Assembly: GCF_025699065.1 (NCBI RefSeq)
Contig: NZ_JAILWF010000002.1
Span: 62,001 to 126,000 of the forward strand
Length of the DNA: 64,000 bases
Direction: 5' to 3'
Source of the DNA: Nitrosarchaeum sp.
Lineage (GTDB): Archaea; Thermoproteota; Nitrososphaeria; Nitrososphaerales; Nitrosopumilaceae
Below the pieces are notes generated by a model, which ran no database searches, was not told the DNA's origin, and saw only the letters and a program-made list of their open reading frames with translations. A program made the position numbers and the translations under genes. Below are positions 16,671 through 31,376 of the stretch, one piece after another (position 1 is the first letter of the stretch; each line of letters begins with the position of its first letter).

Positions 16671-18431
16671 TTGAATCATATAATGGAAAAAGCATTATCT
16701 GAATATATGCTGATAGCAGAAAAACTGGAACCTAAAGATCATTCTAAAAATATTAAACTTGCTTTTCTGTCGAGTTTCACAATTAATGGTTTAGCTGAAG
16801 TAGTAAAAACCAAGTGTCATTACAAAAAAGTATTTTGTAATACATACGTTGGATCGTATAATCAATATAATCAAGAGATATTAAATAATAAAAGTAATTT
16901 GTATAAGTTTAATCCAGAATTAACATTTCTTATTTTAGATGTACGTTCTATTTTTGATGAATTATATTATTTTCCTCATCGTTTTTCTCTTGAACAAAAA
17001 AATAATTTTATTTCAAATAAAGTTAATGAACTTATAAATTTAGTCACATATTTTAAAACCAATTCAAATTCAAAATTAATTTTATCAAATCTTCCACTAA
17101 TGTCTCAAAATTCTCATATTATATCAGAATCAAAAACTGAGTTTAATAACAATCAAATGATATTACAATTTAATAAATTACTAGAAGATAAAATACGTAA
17201 TCTAGAATCTGTTTTTATTTTTAATATGAATGACTTTGTAATTAAATATGGTGAAGAGAATGTCTTTAATTATCAAAACTATTTTTTTGGCGATATAAAA
17301 ATTGCATTAAATTTTATTCCACATCTTGGAAATATGTTGATGTCATTTATTATAGCATTTTTAGGGATTTCAAAAAAGTGTATCGTTTTAGATCTAGATG
17401 ATACTTTATGGGGAGGAATAGTTGGAGAAGATGGATTTGATGGAATTAGTTTAGGACCTCAACCACCTGGAAATTCTTTTGTGGAATTTCAAAAATACCT
17501 AAAGGCTATGAGTGAAAGAGGAATAATTCTTTCCATAAACAGTAGAAATAATGTACACGATGCTCTAAATGTTATCAGAAATCATCCGTATATGATTCTA
17601 AAAGAAGAAGATTTTTCATGTATTGTAATCAATTGGGGTGATAAAGTTGAAAACTTGCGTGAAATTTCTAAAAAACTGAATATTGGGCTTGACAGTATGG
17701 TATTTTTTGATGATGATCCAGTTAATAGAGAATATGTTAGAAATCGACTTCCAGATGTACAAGTCCCAGAAATGCCGTCAGATCCATCTGACTATTGTAG
17801 AGTATTGTTAGACATGAATGAGTTTAGTTCCTACGAAATAACTGAAGAAGATCTTAAGCGTAAAGAAATGTATTCACAACAACAAAAAAGAATTGAACTA
17901 CAACAAAATAGTTCGAATCTTGATGATTTTCTTAATACCTTAAATCTACATGTAATTCTAAAGAATGCAGACAGTTATTCAATTCCAAGAATCTCACAAC
18001 TAACATTAAAAACTAATCAATTCAATTTAACTACTAAAAGATATCAAAAATCGGAAATTGACGCATTCAGTAAATCTCAAAATATGCTAGTGGGATCTGC
18101 TCAAGTATTAGATAAATTTGGTGATAGTGGAATTACTGGCGTGTATATAATAAAAAAGACTAACTCAAAGGAATGGGAGATTGATTCATTTCTTCTTAGT
18201 TGTAGAGTAATGGGCAGAGAAATTGAAAAAGTTATGATGGAACATATAATAAATTTAGCACGAAAAAATAATGTGGAAATTCTAAAAGCAAAATTCATTC
18301 CAACAGAAAAAAATGAACCAATTAAATCTTTTCTACCAGCATGTGGTTTTATAAAATCTGGTGATTCTTGGGTTTATGATATTAAGCAACCATTTACTTC
18401 TCCTACTTTTGTTAAAAAGGAGATAAAATAA
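16671..18431 (+). CDS. FkbH-like HAD-IIIC protein with GNAT-like C-terminus
   Basis: A 586-residue protein in three parts: an N-terminal SGNH-like region (about 25-225), a HAD-IIIC domain (about 235-380) and a GNAT-like domain (about 415-575). The HAD nucleophile motif is DLDDTLWGG (residues 241-249); Lys (K325) and FDDDP (346-350) complete the site. FkbH enzymes take glycerate from 1,3-bisphosphoglycerate onto an acyl carrier protein; related ones sit in sugar-modification clusters. Its stop overlaps the start of an ACP gene by one base. ATG 16683 is an alternative start to TTG 16671. The family is clear; the acyl group carried is unknown. Confidence 0.88.
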   Translation: MNHIMEKALSEYMLIAEKLEPKDHSKNIKLAFLSSFTINGLAEVVKTKCHYKKVFCNTYVGSYNQYNQEILNNKSNLYKFNPELTFLILDVRSIFDELYYFPHRFSLEQKNNFISNKVNELINLVTYFKTNSNSKLILSNLPLMSQNSHIISESKTEFNNNQMILQFNKLLEDKIRNLESVFIFNMNDFVIKYGEENVFNYQNYFFGDIKIALNFIPHLGNMLMSFIIAFLGISKKCIVLDLDDTLWGGIVGEDGFDGISLGPQPPGNSFVEFQKYLKAMSERGIILSINSRNNVHDALNVIRNHPYMILKEEDFSCIVINWGDKVENLREISKKLNIGLDSMVFFDDDPVNREYVRNRLPDVQVPEMPSDPSDYCRVLLDMNEFSSYEITEEDLKRKEMYSQQQKRIELQQNSSNLDDFLNTLNLHVILKNADSYSIPRISQLTLKTNQFNLTTKRYQKSEIDAFSKSQNMLVGSAQVLDKFGDSGITGVYIIKKTNSKEWEIDSFLLSCRVMGREIEKVMMEHIINLARKNNVEILKAKFIPTEKNEPIKSFLPACGFIKSGDSWVYDIKQPFTSPTFVKKEIK

Positions 18432-18667
18432 TGTCCGAAAAGCTTTATTCGTTAATTTCAAAAATTCTAGGAATTCCTATACAACAAATTAATGATGATT
18501 CTGGTCCTGGAAATCTTTCTTCATGGACTTCATTCAAAAGCTATGTTTTACTTTATGAACTAGAAAGCACATTTGATGTAAAATTCAGTATTGATGAGAT
18601 AATGGATGTGAAAAATGTATCTGATATAAAACGACATTTGAAAAATCACGGAAAATCATTTGACTAA
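18431..18667 (+). CDS. Acyl carrier protein
   Basis: A 78-residue four-helix acyl carrier protein. It aligns without gaps to the classic ACP helix II: TSFKSYVLLYELESTFD here against DSLDTVELVMALEEEFD in E. coli ACP. That places the 4'-phosphopantetheine attachment at Ser34. The second acidic helix (SIDEIMDVKNVSDIKRHL) is also typical. Its ATG overlaps the FkbH stop by one base, and its 3' end overlaps the MaoC gene by 8 bp. It would carry an acyl chain made or loaded by its operon partners. Such proteins are rare in archaea. Confidence 0.85.
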   Translation: MSEKLYSLISKILGIPIQQINDDSGPGNLSSWTSFKSYVLLYELESTFDVKFSIDEIMDVKNVSDIKRHLKNHGKSFD

Positions 18668-19085
18668 TTCACAATCTTTCAAATTTAATGAAATCCAGGT
18701 AGGACAAGAAGCATCTTTTCAATTAAAAATAACTAATGATATGATTAACAAATTTGCAGAAATTTCAGGAGATTATAATCCACTACATGTAGATGAACAA
18801 TTTGCAAAAAATTCAAGATTTGGAAATAAAATATGTCATGGAATGTTACTCGGTTCTTTTATCTCACAATTAGTTGGGATGCATATGCCAGGAACAAACT
18901 GCTTATACCTCTCACAGAATTTAGAATTTGAAAATCCATGTTATGTTAATGATAAAATTACGATTAAAGGCATAGTTGTTGGAAAAAGTAATAGTACCAA
19001 AATCCTAGAGATTTCAACTACTATCATAAATCAAGATAAAATAGTCCTTGTAAGTGGAATTGCAAGAGTTATGGTTTTGGAATGA
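18660..19085 (+). CDS. MaoC-like (R)-hydratase
   Basis: A 141-residue hot-dog-fold protein of the MaoC/PhaJ family, which adds water across an enoyl thioester to give an (R)-3-hydroxyacyl thioester, or the reverse. The active dyad is D38 and H43 in ISGDYNPLHVDEQFA, followed by GNKICHGMLLGSFIS. These match the hydratase-2 motif. The start is a TTG at 18660 inside the ACP 3' end. Its operon position suggests it acts on an ACP-bound (or CoA-bound) acyl group that ends up on a sugar. The exact substrate is not visible. Confidence 0.87.
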   Translation: MTNSQSFKFNEIQVGQEASFQLKITNDMINKFAEISGDYNPLHVDEQFAKNSRFGNKICHGMLLGSFISQLVGMHMPGTNCLYLSQNLEFENPCYVNDKITIKGIVVGKSNSTKILEISTTIINQDKIVLVSGIARVMVLE

Positions 19086-19088
19086 CTT

Positions 19089-19436
19089 ATGATAGATAAA
19101 ATTGGAATTGGAATCGATTTAGTAAAGGTTAGTATGTTTAACAGTTTACCATATGATTCTAATAAAAACTTCTATACAAAAATTTTTACAAATTCCGAAA
19201 TCAAATATTGTCTAAAATTCTCAAATCCATATCAACATTTTTCAGGAAAGTTTGCAATAAAAGAAGCTGTACAAAAATCTATTTTAGACAAAATACCAAT
19301 ACTTCATATAATTACTGATCATAAAAATTCAATTCCAACAGTCAAAATTAAAAATAATCAAAAATATTCATTTAAGATCTCATTGTCTCATGAAGATGAA
19401 TATGCTGTGGCTGTTGTTATTTCTGAAAAAATCTAA
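19089..19436 (+). CDS. acpS: Holo-ACP synthase (AcpS-type phosphopantetheinyl transferase)
   Basis: A 115-residue AcpS-type enzyme that moves 4'-phosphopantetheine from CoA to the Ser of an acyl carrier protein. Mg2+-binding Asp D10 is in GIGIDLVKV, Glu E59 is in GKFAIKEAV, and FTNSEIKYC and SLSHEDEYAVAVV are also AcpS marks. It lies 3 bp after the MaoC gene in the same operon, so its target is presumably the ACP three genes upstream. It is slightly shorter than bacterial AcpS (about 125). It converges with the next glycosyltransferase, overlapping by 4 bp. Confidence 0.87.
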   Translation: MIDKIGIGIDLVKVSMFNSLPYDSNKNFYTKIFTNSEIKYCLKFSNPYQHFSGKFAIKEAVQKSILDKIPILHIITDHKNSIPTVKIKNNQKYSFKISLSHEDEYAVAVVISEKI

Positions 19437-21635: not shown

Positions 21636-23012
21636 ATGTTTTACATGCGTCCAAATTTGTTAATAATTCTAGTTGATTCATTACGCGCCGATAAATTTTA
21701 TGGTAAAGAAAAATCATCTGATACTCCAAATATTGACTCATTTATATCAAAAGGAGTTTATTTTAATAAAAATTTTAGTTCATCAGATGGAACTGTTTTA
21801 TCTTGGTCAAGCATATTTACTTCTTTACATTCATTTAAAACAGGAGTCACTGGAAAAAATTTCAATAAAATTAATAGCAATATAAAAACGCATTTTCAAT
21901 TATTACAGGAATCTGGTTATCATGCTTATTCATGTGTTCCAAAAATTGCTTATGTAGTTGGTCTATTAGATAATTTTTCAAATGATGATAAAACATATCC
22001 GAATTTCCTAAATCTAGACGAAGGTCTTGCTGAAAAAATTATTACAAAATTAAAATCAGGTCAGATGCTAGAGCCTTGGATCTTTTTTATTCATATTAAT
22101 GATATTCATTTTCCAATTAAACCCCCACAAAAATTTGATAAGGAAAAATTTGGTGTTACCAAATATGAAAGAATGATTTCCTCAATTGATTACTCACTTG
22201 GTAAAATTTTGGAACATGTTAATCTAGAAACAACTACAGTTGTTCTGTCTGCAGATCATGGAGCCTATATTCCAAGTATAAAAAATTCTGATATTAAAAT
22301 TAATTTTGAACCTAATGGTCAATTACAACGCACTATTACAAAATTTGCTAATAAAATACCCTCTTCTTTAGAGCCAATAAAAAGAAAATCATTTTTTATT
22401 TTGGAAAATATTAGAAAAAAATCTAAAGAACAAAAACTCAAAAATCTGGATTTATCAGAAAAAGAAAAACGAGCGTTATTATCACAACGTGGAGATTCGG
22501 ATCATTTCCTCTTTGACGAAAAAATACACGTGCCACTACTTTTTATGGGATATGGAGTTAAAAATCCAAAAATTGTAGATCAGCTTTCAAGGAGTATTGA
22601 TATTTTTCCTACTTTGTTGGAAATAATCGGTATAACTTATCCTAATGTGTCATTTGATGGTCAGAGCTTATACCCACTTTTTGAAAATAAATTATTAAAA
22701 GAATTACCAGTGATAATACAAAGTAGTCCTCAAGTAGAAATTAAATCAAATGATGTAATTGGAGTTAGAACAAAAGATTTCAAATATTTCAGAGATATAG
22801 ATAATGCCGGAAAAAGAGTATTTCTTTTCGATTTATCAAGTGATCCTGACGAAGAAAATAACATTGCTTCTTTAAATCCTGAAAAAGTTTTTGAGCTTGA
22901 GAAAATTTTACAAAAAGAATCTTTGAATTCCATTCATAAAAATGAAATGGAGATTGATGAAGATGAAATCAAAAATATAGAAAAGGAACTCAAAAAACTA
23001 GGTTATGTTTAA
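21636..23012 (+). CDS. Sulfatase-fold (alkaline phosphatase superfamily) protein without the formylglycine motif
   Basis: A 458-residue protein of the sulfatase/alkaline phosphatase superfamily. Metal ligands are visible: D14 in ILVDSLRAD and DH in VVLSADHGAY. The formylglycine motif C/S-x-P-x-R of true sulfatases is absent; the equivalent region reads TVLSWSSIFTSLHSFKTG, with Ser or Thr as possible nucleophile. That favours a phospho-transferase or hydrolase role over sulfate ester cleavage. The tail has the usual FDLSSDPDEENNIA. No signal peptide is seen. It converges with a second such gene, overlapping by 4 bp. Confidence 0.82.
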   Translation: MFYMRPNLLIILVDSLRADKFYGKEKSSDTPNIDSFISKGVYFNKNFSSSDGTVLSWSSIFTSLHSFKTGVTGKNFNKINSNIKTHFQLLQESGYHAYSCVPKIAYVVGLLDNFSNDDKTYPNFLNLDEGLAEKIITKLKSGQMLEPWIFFIHINDIHFPIKPPQKFDKEKFGVTKYERMISSIDYSLGKILEHVNLETTTVVLSADHGAYIPSIKNSDIKINFEPNGQLQRTITKFANKIPSSLEPIKRKSFFILENIRKKSKEQKLKNLDLSEKEKRALLSQRGDSDHFLFDEKIHVPLLFMGYGVKNPKIVDQLSRSIDIFPTLLEIIGITYPNVSFDGQSLYPLFENKLLKELPVIIQSSPQVEIKSNDVIGVRTKDFKYFRDIDNAGKRVFLFDLSSDPDEENNIASLNPEKVFELEKILQKESLNSIHKNEMEIDEDEIKNIEKELKKLGYV

Positions 23013-24121
23013 TCTCTATTAATCCATTTTAACAATTCTCTTTTTAATTCTGATTCAATTTTTATTCCTGTTCCATACAAATTTTTTGTTTCATTGGGAT
23101 CATTTTCTAAATTATATAATTCCCATTTATCAGGTGTTTTGAGATACATAAGCTTGTATGATGGGGATTTTATACAAAAAACATTTGGTTCCATTGGAGA
23201 TGGATATGGCCCATGTAGAGCACCAGTCTCAGAAAATGTATATTTTTTTTCACTAATTCCTTTACTATCGTCTTTTAAGAAGTTTACAAAACTATCTCCT
23301 GGTAGATTTCCATATTCTATCTCACAATAATCTAGTATTGTTGGTAAGATATCGATTGATTCTCTCAATTTGCTAGTCTTTCTACCACTCTTAATCTCTG
23401 GTCCTATGAAAATATAAAATGATCTTATGGTTTCTTCAAATGTAAACGAACCATAATTTCTTTCACCAAATCTCTCTCCTATGCCAGTACCATGATCACT
23501 GAAAAATACAATTAAAGTATTTTTTTCTATTTTTTGTTGATTTATTTTTTCAATAATTTTTGTAGCATATTTTCCTGCCTCAGAAAATACTAAATCATAA
23601 TTTTTTAAATTTTCTTGTTTATTTTTATAAAATCTCTCATCATTCCATTCATACTTTTTTAAAATTTCTGAAACAGTAATTGTATGGATTCTGGTAAAAT
23701 GAAGAAATAAAAATATTGGCTTATCTTTTGCCTGTTTTATACAATCTTCAATAAACTCTGGATGTCTATTAAACAAATTATCCTTGTATTCGTCATGTGA
23801 TTGATGAATGTCAAATCCCCGATTTGCTATTATTTTATCTGATAAAAGATCACATGCTGTGAAATACCCATTCTCTTTAAAGTATTCTGACATAATTTTA
23901 ATTGAGTTTTTCAATCTGAACATCTTGTAATATGCGTTTATTCCGTTTTCTTTTCCATAATTACCTGAGAATAATGCATTGACTGAGCCTATGGTGTATG
24001 GAATTGCAGTTGTTACATTATCTAATAAAGTTCCGTTTTTAAGGACGCTGGTGAATTCTGAATTATTTATTCTGTCCCATCTTGCTCCATCAATTAAGAC
24101 TATAATTACATTATATTTCAT
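23009..24121 (-). CDS. Sulfatase-fold protein, last gene of the putative phosphoramidate operon
   Basis: A 370-residue sulfatase/alkaline phosphatase superfamily protein. D10 lies in VLIDGARWD, the second metal site is FFSDHGTG, and the tail LYNLENDPNETKNL is family-typical. The nucleophile region reads IPYTIGSVNALFSG, so Thr or Ser replaces the formylglycine Cys. It overlaps the nucleotidyltransferase gene by 4 bp and is probably co-transcribed with it. It may therefore handle a phosphoramidate or phosphodiester on a glycan rather than a sulfate. That role is a guess from position. Confidence 0.82.
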   Translation of the reverse strand: MKYNVIIVLIDGARWDRINNSEFTSVLKNGTLLDNVTTAIPYTIGSVNALFSGNYGKENGINAYYKMFRLKNSIKIMSEYFKENGYFTACDLLSDKIIANRGFDIHQSHDEYKDNLFNRHPEFIEDCIKQAKDKPIFLFLHFTRIHTITVSEILKKYEWNDERFYKNKQENLKNYDLVFSEAGKYATKIIEKINQQKIEKNTLIVFFSDHGTGIGERFGERNYGSFTFEETIRSFYIFIGPEIKSGRKTSKLRESIDILPTILDYCEIEYGNLPGDSFVNFLKDDSKGISEKKYTFSETGALHGPYPSPMEPNVFCIKSPSYKLMYLKTPDKWELYNLENDPNETKNLYGTGIKIESELKRELLKWINRD

Positions 24122-24927
24122 TTCTCAGCTCTAAAAAATCTTGAAATATTTCCATTTTTATACATTTTATTATATAATTTATAATCATTAATAGAATCTA
24201 ATTCTAACCACCCATTTTTTATTGATACTGCTTTAATTTTTTCTCCTGAATTAATTAAATACATTAGGAAATCTGTCATAAACGATTTTTCAAATGTTGT
24301 ATTGGGATTCATTATGTTTTCACCGTTTAAACTTGCTTTTTTTAAAGCATCATATTTTTTTCTGATTTTATTAATGCTTTTTCCTTGAAATTTCATTAGA
24401 CCAATATATTGCCCATTTATTTCCTCTATGTTTTTCACTTTCTTTCCAATATCTGTAATGTACCCGTTTTTGTTAATTTTTAGGCTCTCTGCATCAGAAA
24501 GTGGCTCAACAAATCGTAGATTCCAATACTTTTTCCAATTTTTATCAATTACAACTGAAAAATCTTCTTTAACTGATAATAACTTTTTTAGAATTCTCTC
24601 TTCAAAAATTATATCTCCATATGATACTATAATGGAACTTGAATTTTTGAAAAATGGTTCAGCACAAAATAATGAATACATCATGTTTGTTTTATGAAAT
24701 TTTTTATTTTTTAAATATATGATATTTGGAAATCTAATACTATCACCTAAATATCCTGTAACTACAATGATGTTATTTATACCACAATTTTTGAAACACT
24801 CTATCTGATATTCTAATATTGATTTTCCAAATAATTTTACTAAACATTTTGGTTTGTGTACAGTTAAAGGCCTTAACCTTCTTCCTTCTCCTGCAGCTAA
24901 AATTATTGCTATTGGCTTATTTGTCAT
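24118..24927 (-). CDS. Nucleotidyltransferase, candidate CTP:phosphoglutamine cytidylyltransferase
   Basis: A 269-residue GT-A-fold nucleotidyltransferase. Near the N-terminus LAAGEGRRLRPLT binds the NTP, then KPKCLV and VSYGDIIFEE (metal-binding Asp). It resembles the LicC/PntC group that uses CTP and small phosphorylated substrates more than RmlA or GalU. Its neighbours are a PEP-synthase-like kinase and a class I amidotransferase, the same trio as C. jejuni Cj1416-Cj1418, where the Cj1416 enzyme makes CDP-L-glutamine. It overlaps the amidotransferase gene by 11 bp. The fold is certain; the substrate rests on gene context. Confidence 0.8.
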   Translation of the reverse strand: MTNKPIAIILAAGEGRRLRPLTVHKPKCLVKLFGKSILEYQIECFKNCGINNIIVVTGYLGDSIRFPNIIYLKNKKFHKTNMMYSLFCAEPFFKNSSSIIVSYGDIIFEERILKKLLSVKEDFSVVIDKNWKKYWNLRFVEPLSDAESLKINKNGYITDIGKKVKNIEEINGQYIGLMKFQGKSINKIRKKYDALKKASLNGENIMNPNTTFEKSFMTDFLMYLINSGEKIKAVSIKNGWLELDSINDYKLYNKMYKNGNISRFFRAEK

Positions 24928-25549
24928 TCCCTTTTAAAAAATCTAATAAGTGTATTTGAAAGTCATTCATATCTCTTTCAGGATGCCACATGACACCAAT
25001 GATTGGTAGTTTTGTATGTCTTATCCCTTCAACTGATTCATCATCTTGGCATTTTGCAAATATCTTTAAGTCTTTTCCTAAATCATTTTCTTCAATTAGA
25101 TTTCTATGAAAAGAATTTACTTCTATGACATCAGTAATATGTGGCACATCATTAGAAATAAATTTGATATTGTGTCGTTTACTTACATGATCCACTGATT
25201 TATTCTTTTTAATATTTCCACCAAAAAATACATTTATGGCTTGCATTCCTCTACATACACCTAAAATTGGAATTTTGTTTTTTATCCCAAAATCAATTAC
25301 TTTTTTTTCTGTTTGATCTCTGATAAGATCATCACCTAAATTATCTCCTCCCGAAATTATTATCCCTTCTATTCCTGATTCTGACAAATATTCATTTATG
25401 TTTTCAATTGAATTGGGAATGAATATGGGTAACAAATTTAATTTGTTTAAAAATTTGCCCCAATCATGGCTTATCGCATCTCTTTTTTCCGTATATGATT
25501 GAGAATCTGAAATTCTCATTGTGATGCCAATTTTTTTTAAACTCATCAT
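24917..25549 (-). CDS. Class I glutamine amidotransferase (C26 type), candidate gamma-glutamyl-CDP-amidate hydrolase
   Basis: A 210-residue C26/PuuD-type amidohydrolase. The catalytic triad is readable: C99 in GVCRGMQAIN, H189 and E191 in VMWHPERD. SGGDNLGDD (residues 66-74) is the oxyanion-side loop. PuuD relatives cleave gamma-glutamyl amides. In C. jejuni, Cj1417 of this family frees cytidine diphosphoramidate from CDP-glutamine; the gene order here matches. It lies 34 bp downstream of the kinase and overlaps the nucleotidyltransferase. A simple gamma-glutamyl-GABA hydrolase is possible but would not explain the neighbours. Confidence 0.82.
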   Translation of the reverse strand: MMSLKKIGITMRISDSQSYTEKRDAISHDWGKFLNKLNLLPIFIPNSIENINEYLSESGIEGIIISGGDNLGDDLIRDQTEKKVIDFGIKNKIPILGVCRGMQAINVFFGGNIKKNKSVDHVSKRHNIKFISNDVPHITDVIEVNSFHRNLIEENDLGKDLKIFAKCQDDESVEGIRHTKLPIIGVMWHPERDMNDFQIHLLDFLKGNDK

Positions 25550-25583
25550 TAAAACTTAGATGATTTCCTTATTTACTTTTTAG

Positions 25584-28079
25584 TTATTTTATATAACCTA
25601 ATGAACGAAGTGTTTTTTTGACTTCCAGAATTTCATTAATTGTTTCATTTTCTAAAATTGTTATCTGTTCATTCTTACAGTCCAGCATTATCTTTTTTGA
25701 TTTTTTTAGATTTTCAAATAACATTTCTCCACAACCTATAGCTGCTGGCAATCCTAATTCAGAACATCTAATTGCCATATGTGATGCGACTCCACCGTAT
25801 TTTGTTATTAATCCTAGAGGATTTTTAGTAAATATCCAGTCATAACCAGGATCTGCATTCTCTATTAAAACAATTTTATTTTTCAAATCATCATTATTCA
25901 AGTTTTTTATAATTTTTATGTCTGCAGTTATTTTTTTTTCTGAAATATAATTTGGTTTTGACACAAAATAATCAACAATAAAAAAATCCTTGATGTCTGA
26001 GATTATAGGTGGTAATTGAAGATAATTGTTAATCTCTTTATGAATTGCATTTTGTTTTATCTTAGAAGACCATTTTTCTGTTAGTTTCTTCCTAGATAAT
26101 TTTTGTGAATTAATTATTGTACTTAAATCAAGATTCGCCATATCTTTTCTGGAGAAGCCAAGTTTTTCTCCAGACAATGCAATGAATTCCAAGGATTCGC
26201 TAAGATTTTTAGTAAACTCAAATTTCAATCTCTCTCTTTCTGAAATAGAGCTTTTTACCAAATCAATAAAATCATTATATTGGATTTTTAACCCTTGTCT
26301 TTCTAAAACTTGTTCTATTTTCTTTTGATTAATTTTTTTATTTATGTGACTTTGAATAGGTTGAAATTTGTATTTTTCAAAAAATTTTTCATTGTCATAT
26401 CTTGTTGCAGTAATGTCGTATGTTCCAGGTCGTAAGTGTCCATATTTTTTAATAAATTGTTTAAAAGTCATTTTTTTGTTTGAAAATAATGCAAAATCTT
26501 TTCTAAAATCGGTTAACGGTGATTCAATTGACTCTAATATTGAATTATAATCTTTGACGTTAAGTATATTCTTAGATACAAAGCTCTTGATAATAATTGA
26601 ACTAATAAATGCAATTCTTGCCATTGTTGAAAATGGTATTGTTCCAAATTTTTTACAATCTTCTAAAAGAATTTTCGCTGTATCAAGATAATCTACATAA
26701 GTTTTATTCGAATTTTCTAAATTTTCAATAATTATTTCTCTATGTGTTTTTAATTCCTTAATTGAATTTTGAGAATCTTTTAATATCTTTGAAAAGTTTT
26801 CAAAAATAGTATTTGTAAATTGTTTTAACTCCATTTCAATATTGTTAATTTCTTCATTTGTAAATCCATATTTTTTTAACTCCTTTAATCTCTTTGTTAC
26901 TGTTAAATCATAACATGAAAATAATATTTCAAATTCTACTTTATCATGTAAATATGGGTATTTTTGTAATTTTGATAAATAATACTTCATTATTTTTTTT
27001 TCAATTGATGTTGAAAATTGTTTTGGAAAAAATGACGAAAAACTAGTTGTGACATTGACATATGGTTTATTTCCAAATTTTTTCATTAGGTTTTTACTGT
27101 ATGGTTTTTTATATCCAATGACTGTTCTGCCTTTAAACCAAGCATAATTCATTATCAAATTATCATATATTGAATAATCCAATTGGTTGGGGTTTTTTCC
27201 AATTATCTCTGATGGATTCCAATCAGCCATATCTGAAAAAATACTAATTTGTTCATTTGGAGAATTTTTACTTCTTATGAAGTCATATTCTAATTTAGAA
27301 ATTCTGTTCTGTAATCTTAAATCATTATATGAAAAACTCTGATTAGATAATCCTGTTAATGGTCTTACCTGAAAGATCACAATATTTTGGTTTTTCCTTA
27401 TGCCAAATTCTACATCTAAAATATCGGAATTTAGGATCTTTTCTAATTCAAAAATTGATAAAATTAATTTTCTCCATTTTTTTGGAACATAATTTTTTTG
27501 GCAATATCTGTAAATCTTTATTGTGCGATTTACAAGTCCTTTCGTTACACTATTTGTAATTCTTGAATCGTCATAATTTATTATAAAATATGGTGCTCCT
27601 GTGTCTGGTGTTCTACTAAAAATCACTCCACTAGTAACAATGTTTTTTGATTGATTCTGAATTAATATTTTATTTCTAATTTCAAAATTATTTTTAATTT
27701 TATATGAATTAATTACTCTATTTATGGCATTAATAGTTGATTTTTTATTTGTTGGTAATACATCTAAAACACTTTCATAACTTCCAGCTAATGAACTATT
27801 TTGTGAATCTTCATCAATAGCAGAGCTTCTAACAATAATTTTATTATTAAATGAACTTGAAATAGTTTTTAGAATTTTTTCAGGATCTGAATTCCATTCT
27901 TCAACAGTAAAGAAAAATAATTTTTCAATTTCTGCTTTTTTGATTTTTCGTTTTAATAATGCTAATATGTCAGCTTTTGTATTGAAATTCTGTTTTGCAT
28001 CTTTGTCAAATATTTTTTCATTTTTAAAATTATTCATATTTTTAGATTTTCTTATTTTGAAACTTCTTAAATCGTTCAA
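25584..28079 (-). CDS. PEP-synthase-like phosphotransferase, candidate L-glutamine kinase
   Basis: An 831-residue protein. The N-terminal ATP-grasp domain of the PPDK/PEP synthase type has IVRSSAIDEDSQNSSLAGS (R84) and FSRTPDTGAPYFIINYDD. Residues about 270-690 are a large helical linker. The C-terminal swivelling domain has the catalytic His in KYGGVASHMAIRCSELGLP (H767). It ends soon after, so the PEP-binding barrel of true PEP synthase is missing. This is the layout of C. jejuni Cj1418, L-glutamine kinase (ATP to AMP plus phosphate). The first ATG overlaps the IMPase gene by 38 bp; ATG 28037 is an alternative start. Confidence 0.85.
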   Translation of the reverse strand: MNDLRSFKIRKSKNMNNFKNEKIFDKDAKQNFNTKADILALLKRKIKKAEIEKLFFFTVEEWNSDPEKILKTISSSFNNKIIVRSSAIDEDSQNSSLAGSYESVLDVLPTNKKSTINAINRVINSYKIKNNFEIRNKILIQNQSKNIVTSGVIFSRTPDTGAPYFIINYDDSRITNSVTKGLVNRTIKIYRYCQKNYVPKKWRKLILSIFELEKILNSDILDVEFGIRKNQNIVIFQVRPLTGLSNQSFSYNDLRLQNRISKLEYDFIRSKNSPNEQISIFSDMADWNPSEIIGKNPNQLDYSIYDNLIMNYAWFKGRTVIGYKKPYSKNLMKKFGNKPYVNVTTSFSSFFPKQFSTSIEKKIMKYYLSKLQKYPYLHDKVEFEILFSCYDLTVTKRLKELKKYGFTNEEINNIEMELKQFTNTIFENFSKILKDSQNSIKELKTHREIIIENLENSNKTYVDYLDTAKILLEDCKKFGTIPFSTMARIAFISSIIIKSFVSKNILNVKDYNSILESIESPLTDFRKDFALFSNKKMTFKQFIKKYGHLRPGTYDITATRYDNEKFFEKYKFQPIQSHINKKINQKKIEQVLERQGLKIQYNDFIDLVKSSISERERLKFEFTKNLSESLEFIALSGEKLGFSRKDMANLDLSTIINSQKLSRKKLTEKWSSKIKQNAIHKEINNYLQLPPIISDIKDFFIVDYFVSKPNYISEKKITADIKIIKNLNNDDLKNKIVLIENADPGYDWIFTKNPLGLITKYGGVASHMAIRCSELGLPAAIGCGEMLFENLKKSKKIMLDCKNEQITILENETINEILEVKKTLRSLGYIK

Positions 28080-28863
28080 TTATTTCAGAATGTATTACTC
28101 CATTTGTAACTAATAATCCGTTCTCATGATTTATGCTCTCTGTATTGTACACTAACTTTTCTCCACACATATCAGTCATTTTTCCTCCTGCCTCATGGAT
28201 TATACAATATGATGCTGCTGTATCCCATTGTTTGATCTTATTTGTAGTTGTAAAGTACATCTGTGCTCTCCCTGTAGATATGTCCATTACTTTTAATGAA
28301 CTTCCTCTTGACACAAATTCTTTTAAACCAAGAGAATCCGAAAATTCTTTTTCAATAGGTGCTAAATGATGTCTGCTTCCAACTGCAATACATTGTGAAA
28401 GGTCTGAGATTGGATTTATTGAAATTTTTTTCCACACCCCATTTTCATTTTGGAATGCCCCCCTACCTTTTTCTGCAACAAAGAGAATTCTATTTTCTGG
28501 CCAATATACAATGCCTACTGTTGGTATCTTATTTTCTATCAATGCAATCATTACCGTGAATTCTCCTGTTTTATTTATAAAATCCGCTGTACCATCAAGA
28601 GGATCAATTATCCAAATTGAATTTTCTTTAATTCGACTTTTATCATCATTACTTTCTTCTGATAAAACTTGTATCCCTGTTTTTGAAAGATACTCTAAAA
28701 TTATTTCGTTACTTGCAATATCTGCACGAGTAATTGGCTCTTCATCTTTTTTATAAGATGTTTTAAAGTCAGAGTCATAAATCTCCATTATCTTTCTCCC
28801 TGCAAGTATAATACTGTCTATAGCAATTTCAATATGTTTTGAAAATTCAAAAGGTTTTTCCAT
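28042..28863 (-). CDS. Inositol monophosphatase / CysQ-family phosphatase
   Basis: A 273-residue Mg2+-dependent phosphatase of the IMPase fold. EEPITRADIASNEI (residues 41-54) is the CysQ-like N-terminal motif, E69/E70 and IIDPLDGTAD (residues 85-94) bind metal, and WDTAASYCIIHEAGG is the second signature. CysQ removes 3'-phosphates from bisphosphorylated nucleotides such as PAP. It is the first gene of the operon with the glutamine-kinase-like gene. If a 3'-phosphorylated phosphoramidate donor is used, as in Campylobacter, this enzyme could recycle the leaving nucleotide. That is inference; a sugar-phosphatase role is also possible. Confidence 0.85.
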   Translation of the reverse strand: MEKPFEFSKHIEIAIDSIILAGRKIMEIYDSDFKTSYKKDEEPITRADIASNEIILEYLSKTGIQVLSEESNDDKSRIKENSIWIIDPLDGTADFINKTGEFTVMIALIENKIPTVGIVYWPENRILFVAEKGRGAFQNENGVWKKISINPISDLSQCIAVGSRHHLAPIEKEFSDSLGLKEFVSRGSSLKVMDISTGRAQMYFTTTNKIKQWDTAASYCIIHEAGGKMTDMCGEKLVYNTESINHENGLLVTNGVIHSEIIERFKKFQNKKI

Positions 28864-28932: not shown

Positions 28933-29811
28933 TCAAATTTTAACAATTTCCTTATCTCGTTTTAATAATAAATTCACGTCTACTAATTCTTCATTAGGAT
29001 ATTTTTTCATTAGACTGTTCACATCCGTTTTTGTAATTGTTCCTTTATTATCATCAATTTCAAAGATATTGAAACCCAAGCTTACTAATTCTTGTAAGTG
29101 CTTATCAGGTTTTATATTATATTTTTTTATTGCGTCTGGCCACCACTCCATCATTAATTTTAAATTTTTATTCTTTTCAATAGTTTTTCGCATACCTTCT
29201 ATAACTAATGGTTCAGAACCTTGAATATCCATTTTTATAAAATCAACTTTAATGTCTTTATCTTGTAAATATTCATCAATAGAAATTGATTCTACTTCAA
29301 TCTCACTATGTTTGACATCTGGTTTGAAAAGTTGATTTTCTGTACTACTATCTTCCCCAATGAAGAATTTTACAACTCCTGATTTTTCAGAAACTGCTTT
29401 TTTTTCCACAATTACATTTTCAAAATGATTTTCCTCAACATTTTTCTTTAAAATTTCAAAATTTCTAGGCTCGGCTTCAAAAGCAATAACTTTTCCACTA
29501 GAGCCAACAATTTTTGCGAGTAATAATGTATAGTACCCAATGTTAGCTCCAACATCTATTGTAATATCTCCTTCATTTACTAATTTTTTTACAACTTTTG
29601 TTTCTGTCTTTTCATGATACCCATACACAGATAAAAAGAGAGAATCTTTGTCATCAAGAAACATCTTATTACCTTCAATTATTACAAAGTCTGGTTTTAA
29701 TTTAGAATTAATTCTATTGTTAATTTTTTGAATAGCACCATATTTTGATAAATTTGATCCTGATAAATCACTTACAAATTTTTTATAAATTTTAAATAGA
29801 CTTTTTTTCAT
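28933..29811 (-). CDS. FkbM-family methyltransferase
   Basis: A 292-residue FkbM-type class I methyltransferase. Motif I is DVGANIGYYT (residues 86-95), then VIAFEAEPRNFEIL and DFIKMDIQGSEPLVIEGM, all strong family marks. It probably methylates a sugar hydroxyl or another O-group. It lies 69 bp upstream of the IMPase gene on the same strand and could be read with that operon. If the operon makes a phosphoramidate, this could supply an O-methyl group, but in Campylobacter different methyltransferases do so, and the sugar is a likelier target. Confidence 0.87.
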   Translation of the reverse strand: MKKSLFKIYKKFVSDLSGSNLSKYGAIQKINNRINSKLKPDFVIIEGNKMFLDDKDSLFLSVYGYHEKTETKVVKKLVNEGDITIDVGANIGYYTLLLAKIVGSSGKVIAFEAEPRNFEILKKNVEENHFENVIVEKKAVSEKSGVVKFFIGEDSSTENQLFKPDVKHSEIEVESISIDEYLQDKDIKVDFIKMDIQGSEPLVIEGMRKTIEKNKNLKLMMEWWPDAIKKYNIKPDKHLQELVSLGFNIFEIDDNKGTITKTDVNSLMKKYPNEELVDVNLLLKRDKEIVKI

Positions 29812-29874
29812 TAAGGCTTTCTATGATGCCCATCTAATAATTATTCTCATTTCTCACTTTATTGTTTAAATTAA

Positions 29875-30809: not shown

Positions 30810-31376
30810 GTGAGAATTTTTTCACAGAATTTATCAAACTATGATCTTCCATTACCTAAGGATTGTATTTTTAGGATCAATTTAGCTTGGGTGAATGGCC
30901 TTGAAGAGTTAAAGTCTATATTATTAAAACATGTTTCACACCAAATTTTCCTTGATTTACCTATAAACCGTACAAAACCACCTCATAACAAATATTCTAT
31001 AGAAGAATTGATTCCCATAATTAAAGAATTTTCTAATATTAGATATTTTGCTATTTCAAATGTTGAAAAAAAAGACGATGTAATTAAGTTTAAAACTATT
31101 TTACCTTCATCAGTAAATATTGTTCCAAAAATTGAAAGTAAAACTGGAATTGATAACATAGAAGAAATTACAAATGAATTAACCTCGAAAATTATCATGT
31201 TAGATCATGATGATCTTTTTTCGTCACTTATCAAATTAAATGAAGATCCCATAACATTCAAAACTTACATAAGTATTCTATCAGATTTTTGTAACAAAAA
31301 TAATGTTATATTATTAAGAACTATTGGTGTAATATTTAGTGATGAAGAGACTAAAATCAGTAATTATGTTCGATAA
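30810..31376 (+). CDS. Minimal pyruvate-kinase-like barrel protein
   Basis: A 188-residue protein that follows the pyruvate kinase A-domain order: FRINLAWVNGLEEL (near R-x-N), IFLDLPINRTKPP (near DLxGPKIR), YFAISNVEKKDD (near AxSFVR), VPKIESKTGIDNIEEI (KIE motif) and IMLDHDDL in place of the usual R-G-D-L. It lacks the B and C domains, so it is not a normal pyruvate kinase (about 470 residues). It may belong to the wider PEP/pyruvate barrel superfamily and handle a three-carbon unit, such as a pyruvyl or enolpyruvyl donor. The start is a GTG at 30810. Function is open. Confidence 0.6.
   Translation: MRIFSQNLSNYDLPLPKDCIFRINLAWVNGLEELKSILLKHVSHQIFLDLPINRTKPPHNKYSIEELIPIIKEFSNIRYFAISNVEKKDDVIKFKTILPSSVNIVPKIESKTGIDNIEEITNELTSKIIMLDHDDLFSSLIKLNEDPITFKTYISILSDFCNKNNVILLRTIGVIFSDEETKISNYVR

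Follow-up and report, generated by a model that had tools for sequence, protein, structure and literature searches.

Can an ammonia-oxidising archaeon build the phosphorus–nitrogen (P–N) group that Campylobacter jejuni carries on its capsule as O-methyl phosphoramidate (MeOPN)? The question is raised by a run of five genes in Nitrosarchaeum sp. (GCF_025699065.1), which lies in a 64,000-nt stretch of contig NZ_JAILWF010000002.1 (positions 62,001–126,000, forward strand), hereafter the window; coordinates are those of the window unless another locus is named. The host is an archaeon with a genome of 1.6 Mb, and relatives of the module are found in, among others, Nitrosopumilus and Marine Group I thaumarchaeotes. 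We think it probable that this operon makes cytidine 5′-diphosphoramidate (CDP-NH2) and places phosphoramidate on a cell-surface glycan. Predicted CDP-amidate synthesis by a kinase–cytidylyltransferase–hydrolase core is well supported, and the transfer step would appear to differ from that of C. jejuni.

The run extends from 28863 to 23009 on the minus strand, and its neighboring open reading frames (ORFs) overlap by 4, 11 and 38 bp, with a single gap of 34 bp. The strand, coordinates and tight packing given in a first-pass annotation of this DNA were borne out by the ORF list, and Pfam returned the domain types that it had named (Sulfatase, NTP_transf_3, Peptidase_C26/GATase, PPDK_N plus PEP-utilizers, and Inositol_P). 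In order of transcription the genes are:

28042..28863, minus strand: CysQ-like 3′(2′),5′-bisphosphate nucleotidase (273 aa; Inositol_P)
25584..28079, minus strand: L-glutamine-kinase-like enzyme (831 aa; PPDK_N + PEP-utilizers; NF004508)
24917..25549, minus strand: C26/class-I glutamine amidotransferase-fold hydrolase, candidate gamma-glutamyl-CDP-amidate hydrolase (210 aa; NF045546 best)
24118..24927, minus strand: LicC/COG1213-type cytidylyltransferase, candidate CTP:phosphoglutamine cytidylyltransferase (269 aa; NTP_transf_3)
23009..24121, minus strand: sulfatase-fold (alkaline-phosphatase-superfamily) protein, candidate phosphoramidoyl transferase or phosphodiesterase (370 aa; PF00884 + PF01663)

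The three core enzymes

The kinase scores 831.7 bits against the NCBIfam model NF004508 (cut-off 501), as opposed to at most 57 bits against the phosphoenolpyruvate (PEP) synthase models and 29 bits, over its C-terminal part only, against the rifamycin phosphotransferase (RPH) model. The first-pass annotation described it as a PEP-synthase-like kinase without the PEP barrel, and Pfam, an AlphaFold model (mean pLDDT 84) and fold comparison all agree: Pfam finds PPDK_N and PEP-utilizers alone, with no match to a PEP barrel, and the protein comprises an ATP-grasp domain (residues ~69–240), a helical substrate domain (~260–700) and a phosphohistidine swivel domain (~734–803). Rifampin phosphotransferase (5hv1), which has the same order of ATP-grasp, substrate and swiveling phosphohistidine domains, is matched over most of the length and better than PEP synthase is, although with only 14–16% identity over the structural match. 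As modeled, this three-domain RPH-like fold is the architecture expected of an ATP-to-substrate phosphohistidine kinase. H767, which sits in the sequence GGVASHMAIRC, is invariant in 17 homologues, as are R84, Q237 and R239.

Grouping of the kinase with PEP synthase or rifampicin phosphotransferase, which the first-pass annotation had set beforehand as evidence against its proposal, was not seen by sequence. In a tree of 28 proteins that included E. coli PpsA and the PPDK-like protein of the host, the kinase family split from these two with 100/99 support; RPH was judged by model score. Both assignments were rejected on the family scores and the tree. Within the family, a DPANN clade (99/99) and a bacterial clade (97/95) both stand apart from Nitrosopumilaceae, and the window kinase is 31–36% identical to the bacterial ones. 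Its annotated TTG start is probably over-called, because homologues begin near residue 27–32 and residues 1–31 are disordered in the model; the true start is probably the ATG at 28037, directly after the CysQ stop codon.

For the hydrolase, the best NCBIfam match is NF045546 (gamma-glutamyl-CDP-amidate hydrolase, Cj1417) at 125 bits, the next best scoring 68. This model is matched by all 16 of the archaeal and bacterial homologues and accounts for the lowest E-value in that set, and it is also the best match for four plasmid homologues. Since no hydrolase with a score seen exceeds the 250-bit cut-off, we treat the protein as a distant relative rather than a certified equivalog. The triad proposed earlier (C99/H189/E191) is found at those positions: C99 is invariant and H189 and E191 nearly so among the 16 homologues, the sole exception being a sequence cut by a contig end. 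PDB 6qur (“Glutaminase”) was considered as a Cj1417 structure and was not used; its alignment looks like that of a TrpG/PabA-type amidotransferase.

The closest solved relative of the cytidylyltransferase, CYTIDYLYLTRANSFERASE, is the LicC CTP:phosphocholine cytidylyltransferase (1jyk, E 5e-16). Its R17, K27 and D105, invariant in 13 module homologues, are comparable with the critical R16/K26/D112 set (PMC12275187). The protein is of the COG1213/LicC sequence type and has the active-site Arg, Lys and Asp.

On the basis of families, conserved residues, synteny and fusions, we propose that the kinase would N-phosphorylate L-glutamine, that the cytidylyltransferase would join phosphoglutamine to CTP, giving gamma-glutamyl-CDP-amidate, and that the C26 hydrolase would remove glutamate and leave CDP-NH2.

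Partnership across genomes

After duplicates and one contig-end fragment were set aside, 28 distinct kinase loci remained, spanning Nitrosopumilaceae, DPANN archaea, Dojkabacteria (CPR), Alpha-, Gamma- and Deltaproteobacteria, and Bacteroidota. The hydrolase is adjacent to, near or fused to the kinase in 27 of them, and 26 have a family cytidylyltransferase either close by or as a fusion; the gene arrangement is far beyond chance, given that kinase and hydrolase occur together in 27/28 loci. In a fecal contig the kinase and hydrolase form one 1011-aa ORF, and the kinases of three bacterial loci (Flavobacteriaceae, Vibrio and Roseovarius) carry a cytidylyltransferase-family domain as an N-terminal fusion. 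The fused kinase–hydrolase is on a sequence filed as “Bacteriophage sp.” (L044, MT837632.1), which by inspection looks bacterial-chromosomal, with thioredoxin-reductase-, PRPP-synthetase- and MurC-like ORFs; a scan of viral contigs found no relative. The DPANN kinases (L017–L021, L025 and L028) carry an N-terminal domain of another fold, CTP_transf_like (TagD-type; Pfam-tested in L028), in addition to a separate LicC-type gene. Near several modules there are CDP-alcohol phosphotransferase or CDP-glycerol glycerophosphotransferase-like genes, which are alternative transferase candidates.

Among 250 genomes of the host family, the kinase occurs in nine, belonging to four of 22 genera. The hydrolase is found at 328–350 bits in exactly the same nine, and no other genome scores above 67 bits. 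On the assumption of independent genomes, which does not hold, the probability of this match arising by chance would be ~1e-16. This patchy spread suits an accessory surface trait. One contig binned as a gammaproteobacterial MAG (L013, PAWF01000051.1) has a Nitrosopumilaceae-like module, the kinase of which has a Marine Group I kinase as its sister, and is probably a misbinned archaeal contig.

Four bacterial plasmid modules, from Deltaproteobacterium Smac51 (L042), Azospirillum (L041), Vibrio alfacsensis (L040) and Roseovarius (L043), resemble the archaeal one in holding the kinase, hydrolase and cytidylyltransferase families together, but no sulfatase-fold partner was detected in them. Two, Smac51 and Azospirillum, encode a methyltransferase and an adenylyl-sulfate (APS) kinase alongside the kinase, hydrolase-like and cytidylyltransferase-like proteins, and so resemble C. 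jejuni in their gene set. Alphaproteobacterial and Lentisphaerae modules, too, have APS-kinase-like genes beside them.

The sulfatase-fold partner and other neighbors

Immediately after the cytidylyltransferase gene, seven Nitrosopumilaceae loci have the sulfatase-fold gene (the window, L008, L009, L010, L012, L016 and L055). When a model of the protein was run against the 250 family genomes, the nine best scores (533–612 bits) fell in the nine kinase-bearing genomes and the next was 437, with the caveats that, for most of the nine, that genome or one apparently matching it contributed to the model and that the threshold is post hoc; G349 and G483 are independent cases because neither was used to build the model. 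The gene is a constant fourth member of the module in Nitrosopumilaceae, which is new here. A homologue in a kinase-free genome (G319:C1:1655363-1656471) lies in two overlapping frames, possibly as a decaying copy or through sequencing error.

Across 15 aligned homologues, T43, which occupies the nucleophile slot, is invariant, as are D11, H146, D209 and H210, and none has a CxPxR motif, Thr standing where sulfatases have Cys or Ser. With Thr43 in 15 of 15, the protein is not expected to be a formylglycine sulfatase, and that function was rejected. A Thr nucleophile together with a similar metal set is found in LtaS/EptA-type phosphotransferases and in nucleotide pyrophosphatases. Inspection of the N terminus shows no evident membrane or signal segment. 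We suggest, as a weaker part of the scheme, that Thr-nucleophile sulfatase-fold proteins may move phosphoramidate to sugar hydroxyls, taking the role of Cj1421/Cj1422, or otherwise process it; that this protein performs phosphoramidoyl transfer is a prediction that we hold with moderate to low confidence. A further sulfatase-fold gene, convergent with the operon, likewise has Thr in the nucleophile slot, and L009, L012, L013, L015 and L016 have homologues of it at the flanks of the module. The features bordering the run are:

21636..23012, plus strand: second sulfatase-fold protein (458 aa)
28933..29811, minus strand: FkbM-family methyltransferase (PF05050, 72 bits)

The gene called IMPase in the first-pass annotation belongs to that family and can be refined to CysQ-like (TIGR01331 is its best match, at 188 bits, below the cut-off of 229). 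It is a second paralogue, 57% identical to the host's core copy. Among the Nitrosopumilaceae loci examined it adjoins the kinase in this genome only, and there is a more distant copy in L028; we accordingly rejected it as a core module member. It may clear a 3′,5′-bisphosphate nucleotide derived either from a 3′-phosphorylated (Cj1415-like) donor or from the sulfotransferase encoded 1 kb away, at 29862. The FkbM gene has the orientation of CysQ, from which it is separated by 69 bp on the upstream side, and it may be cotranscribed with the run, possibly as the first gene of the operon; its product could supply an O-methyl group, and homologues occur in three further module loci (L013, L017 and L025).

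A dedicated Cj1415 was searched for in the host genome and not found. The single APS kinase above cut-off lies outside the cluster, beside the core CysQ, and ATP sulfurylase is also encoded, an arrangement that therefore fits ordinary 3′-phosphoadenosine 5′-phosphosulfate (PAPS) synthesis. In the archaeal loci the only APS-kinase-type match is a CysNC fusion in L028. Thus, the core of glutamine kinase, cytidylyltransferase and CDP-amidate hydrolase put forward in the first-pass annotation is supported by family models, tree, synteny, fusions and co-occurrence, whereas the second half of the C. jejuni route differs, there being no Cj1415-like gene in the Nitrosopumilaceae modules and a sulfatase-fold protein as constant partner. 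The archaeal versions, in Nitrosopumilaceae and DPANN, might conceivably use a shortened pathway in which CDP-NH2 itself is the donor, without 3′-phosphorylation, and the phosphoramidoyl transferases are cytoplasmic Thr-nucleophile members of the alkaline phosphatase superfamily, an idea that we offer tentatively and regard as doubtful. We know of no description of such donor and transferase chemistry for P–N groups.

Mostly glycan-biosynthesis genes surround the module (nucleotidyltransferases, epimerases, aminotransferases, NeuB-/WbuX-like genes, glycosyltransferases and a flippase); names of flanking genes outside the scanned proteins were assigned by reading the sequences. GC content is 26–30% over the first 56 kb of the window and 32–33% beyond. 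In the glycan region, 16671-19436 encodes, by inspection, an FkbH-like HAD protein, then a MaoC-like dehydratase, then an ACP-synthase-like protein. An HpcH/HpaI-like protein is encoded at 30810-31376, and in L011 a homologue (561-1133) immediately precedes the kinase. A Pfam-less, apparently membrane-anchored protein (family c6) is encoded repeatedly next to modules of archaea and alphaproteobacteria:

L010, 13179-14429: c6-family protein
L017, 8034-9323: c6-family protein
L027, 13824-15074: c6-family protein
L055, 4228-5466: c6-family protein (member by N-terminal similarity)

Alternative readings and known systems

Several points weigh against a phosphoramidate pathway. The hydrolase score is half of the curated equivalog cut-off of NF045546, the NF004508 family is itself titled “hypothetical protein”, and the likeness to Cj1416–1418 rests on the NF045546 model and the logic of the gene set. 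COG1213 cytidylyltransferases take many substrates, and Cj1416 is promiscuous with Mn (PMC12275187). The nearest solved folds of the sulfatase-fold protein are sulfatases, tblastn found no Cj1415-like (APS-kinase-like) gene in the Nitrosopumilaceae modules, and the arrival of the product on a glycan is our proposal. The same core logic could serve another group, with the kinase and cytidylyltransferase acting on a different amide or phospho-compound (e.g., an N-alkyl glutamine or another phosphorylated amino acid) and the hydrolase freeing a substituted phosphoramidate or other CDP-linked group. The versatility of the cytidylyltransferase family (PMC12275187), the sub-threshold hydrolase and the low identity to bacterial kinases (31–36%) all leave room for this, but the kinase is near-universally paired with a Cj1417-type hydrolase and catalytic residues are kept across all groups; we therefore favor the same three-step logic and consider a different group unlikely.

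It is very improbable that the kinase has been misassigned and is really a PEP synthase/PPDK or a rifampicin-type phosphotransferase among generic glycan genes: it does have PPDK_N and PEP-utilizers domains in common with these enzymes and a three-domain fold closest to that of rifampin phosphotransferase, but its own family outscores theirs (831 bits against at most 57 and 29), it lacks the PEP barrel, the tree separates it from PEP synthase/PPDK at 100/99, and its partnership with the hydrolase is strict. A less drastic alternative, compatible with all three core steps, limits the phosphoramidate module to the core genes and assigns the sulfatase-fold gene and CysQ to sulfate-ester metabolism together with the sulfotransferase at 29862. 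The PF00884 fold, whose best solved matches are sulfatases, the sulfotransferase 1 kb off, the ATP sulfurylase and APS kinase in the genome, and the absence of CysQ beside the kinase in other archaeal modules are all in its favor. It nevertheless seems to us a minority possibility, as Thr replaces the Cys that becomes formylglycine in sulfatases, the gene comes immediately after that of the cytidylyltransferase in seven loci of Nitrosopumilaceae, and its closest orthologues are in kinase-bearing genomes only, two of them outside the model set.

The phosphoramidate reading can be set beside the C. jejuni MeOPN locus (PMC11800397), where the kinase, cytidylyltransferase and CDP-amidate-hydrolase families also share one glycan locus; two candidate transferase genes near the archaeal module recall Cj1421/Cj1422. 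The archaeal cluster differs in lacking a gene for a Cj1415-type (APS-kinase-like) CDP-phosphoramidate 3′-kinase, in adding a constant Thr-nucleophile sulfatase-fold partner, for which the available part of the C. jejuni gene list has no counterpart, as well as CysQ and the FkbM methyltransferase, and in its archaeal host. The idea of archaeal phosphoramidate is not wholly new: an MeOPN cluster was predicted from structures on the Cobalt Borg element (PMC12660748, 2025), which resembles our locus in being a surface-decoration region associated with archaea and in having a predicted CTP:phosphoglutamine cytidylyltransferase. Borgs, however, are extrachromosomal elements of methane-oxidising archaea, whereas our module belongs to a Nitrosopumilaceae genome, and for it the kinase–hydrolase partnership, the fusions and the co-occurrence have been examined. 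The literature that we searched described no phosphoramidate cluster in ammonia-oxidising archaea, and experimental proof of dedicated glycan P–N bond biosynthesis in Campylobacter only.

If our reading is true, P–N glycan decoration would be a patchy surface modification that crosses domains, occurring in bacteria and in ammonia-oxidising and DPANN archaea. In C. jejuni, phages use MeOPN as a receptor (PMC3907429), and patchiness is what surface traits under virus pressure would show. The archaeal module would make the same rare P–N group as the Campylobacter capsule, apparently with other finishing enzymes, and the sulfatase-fold protein is a named candidate for the transfer step.

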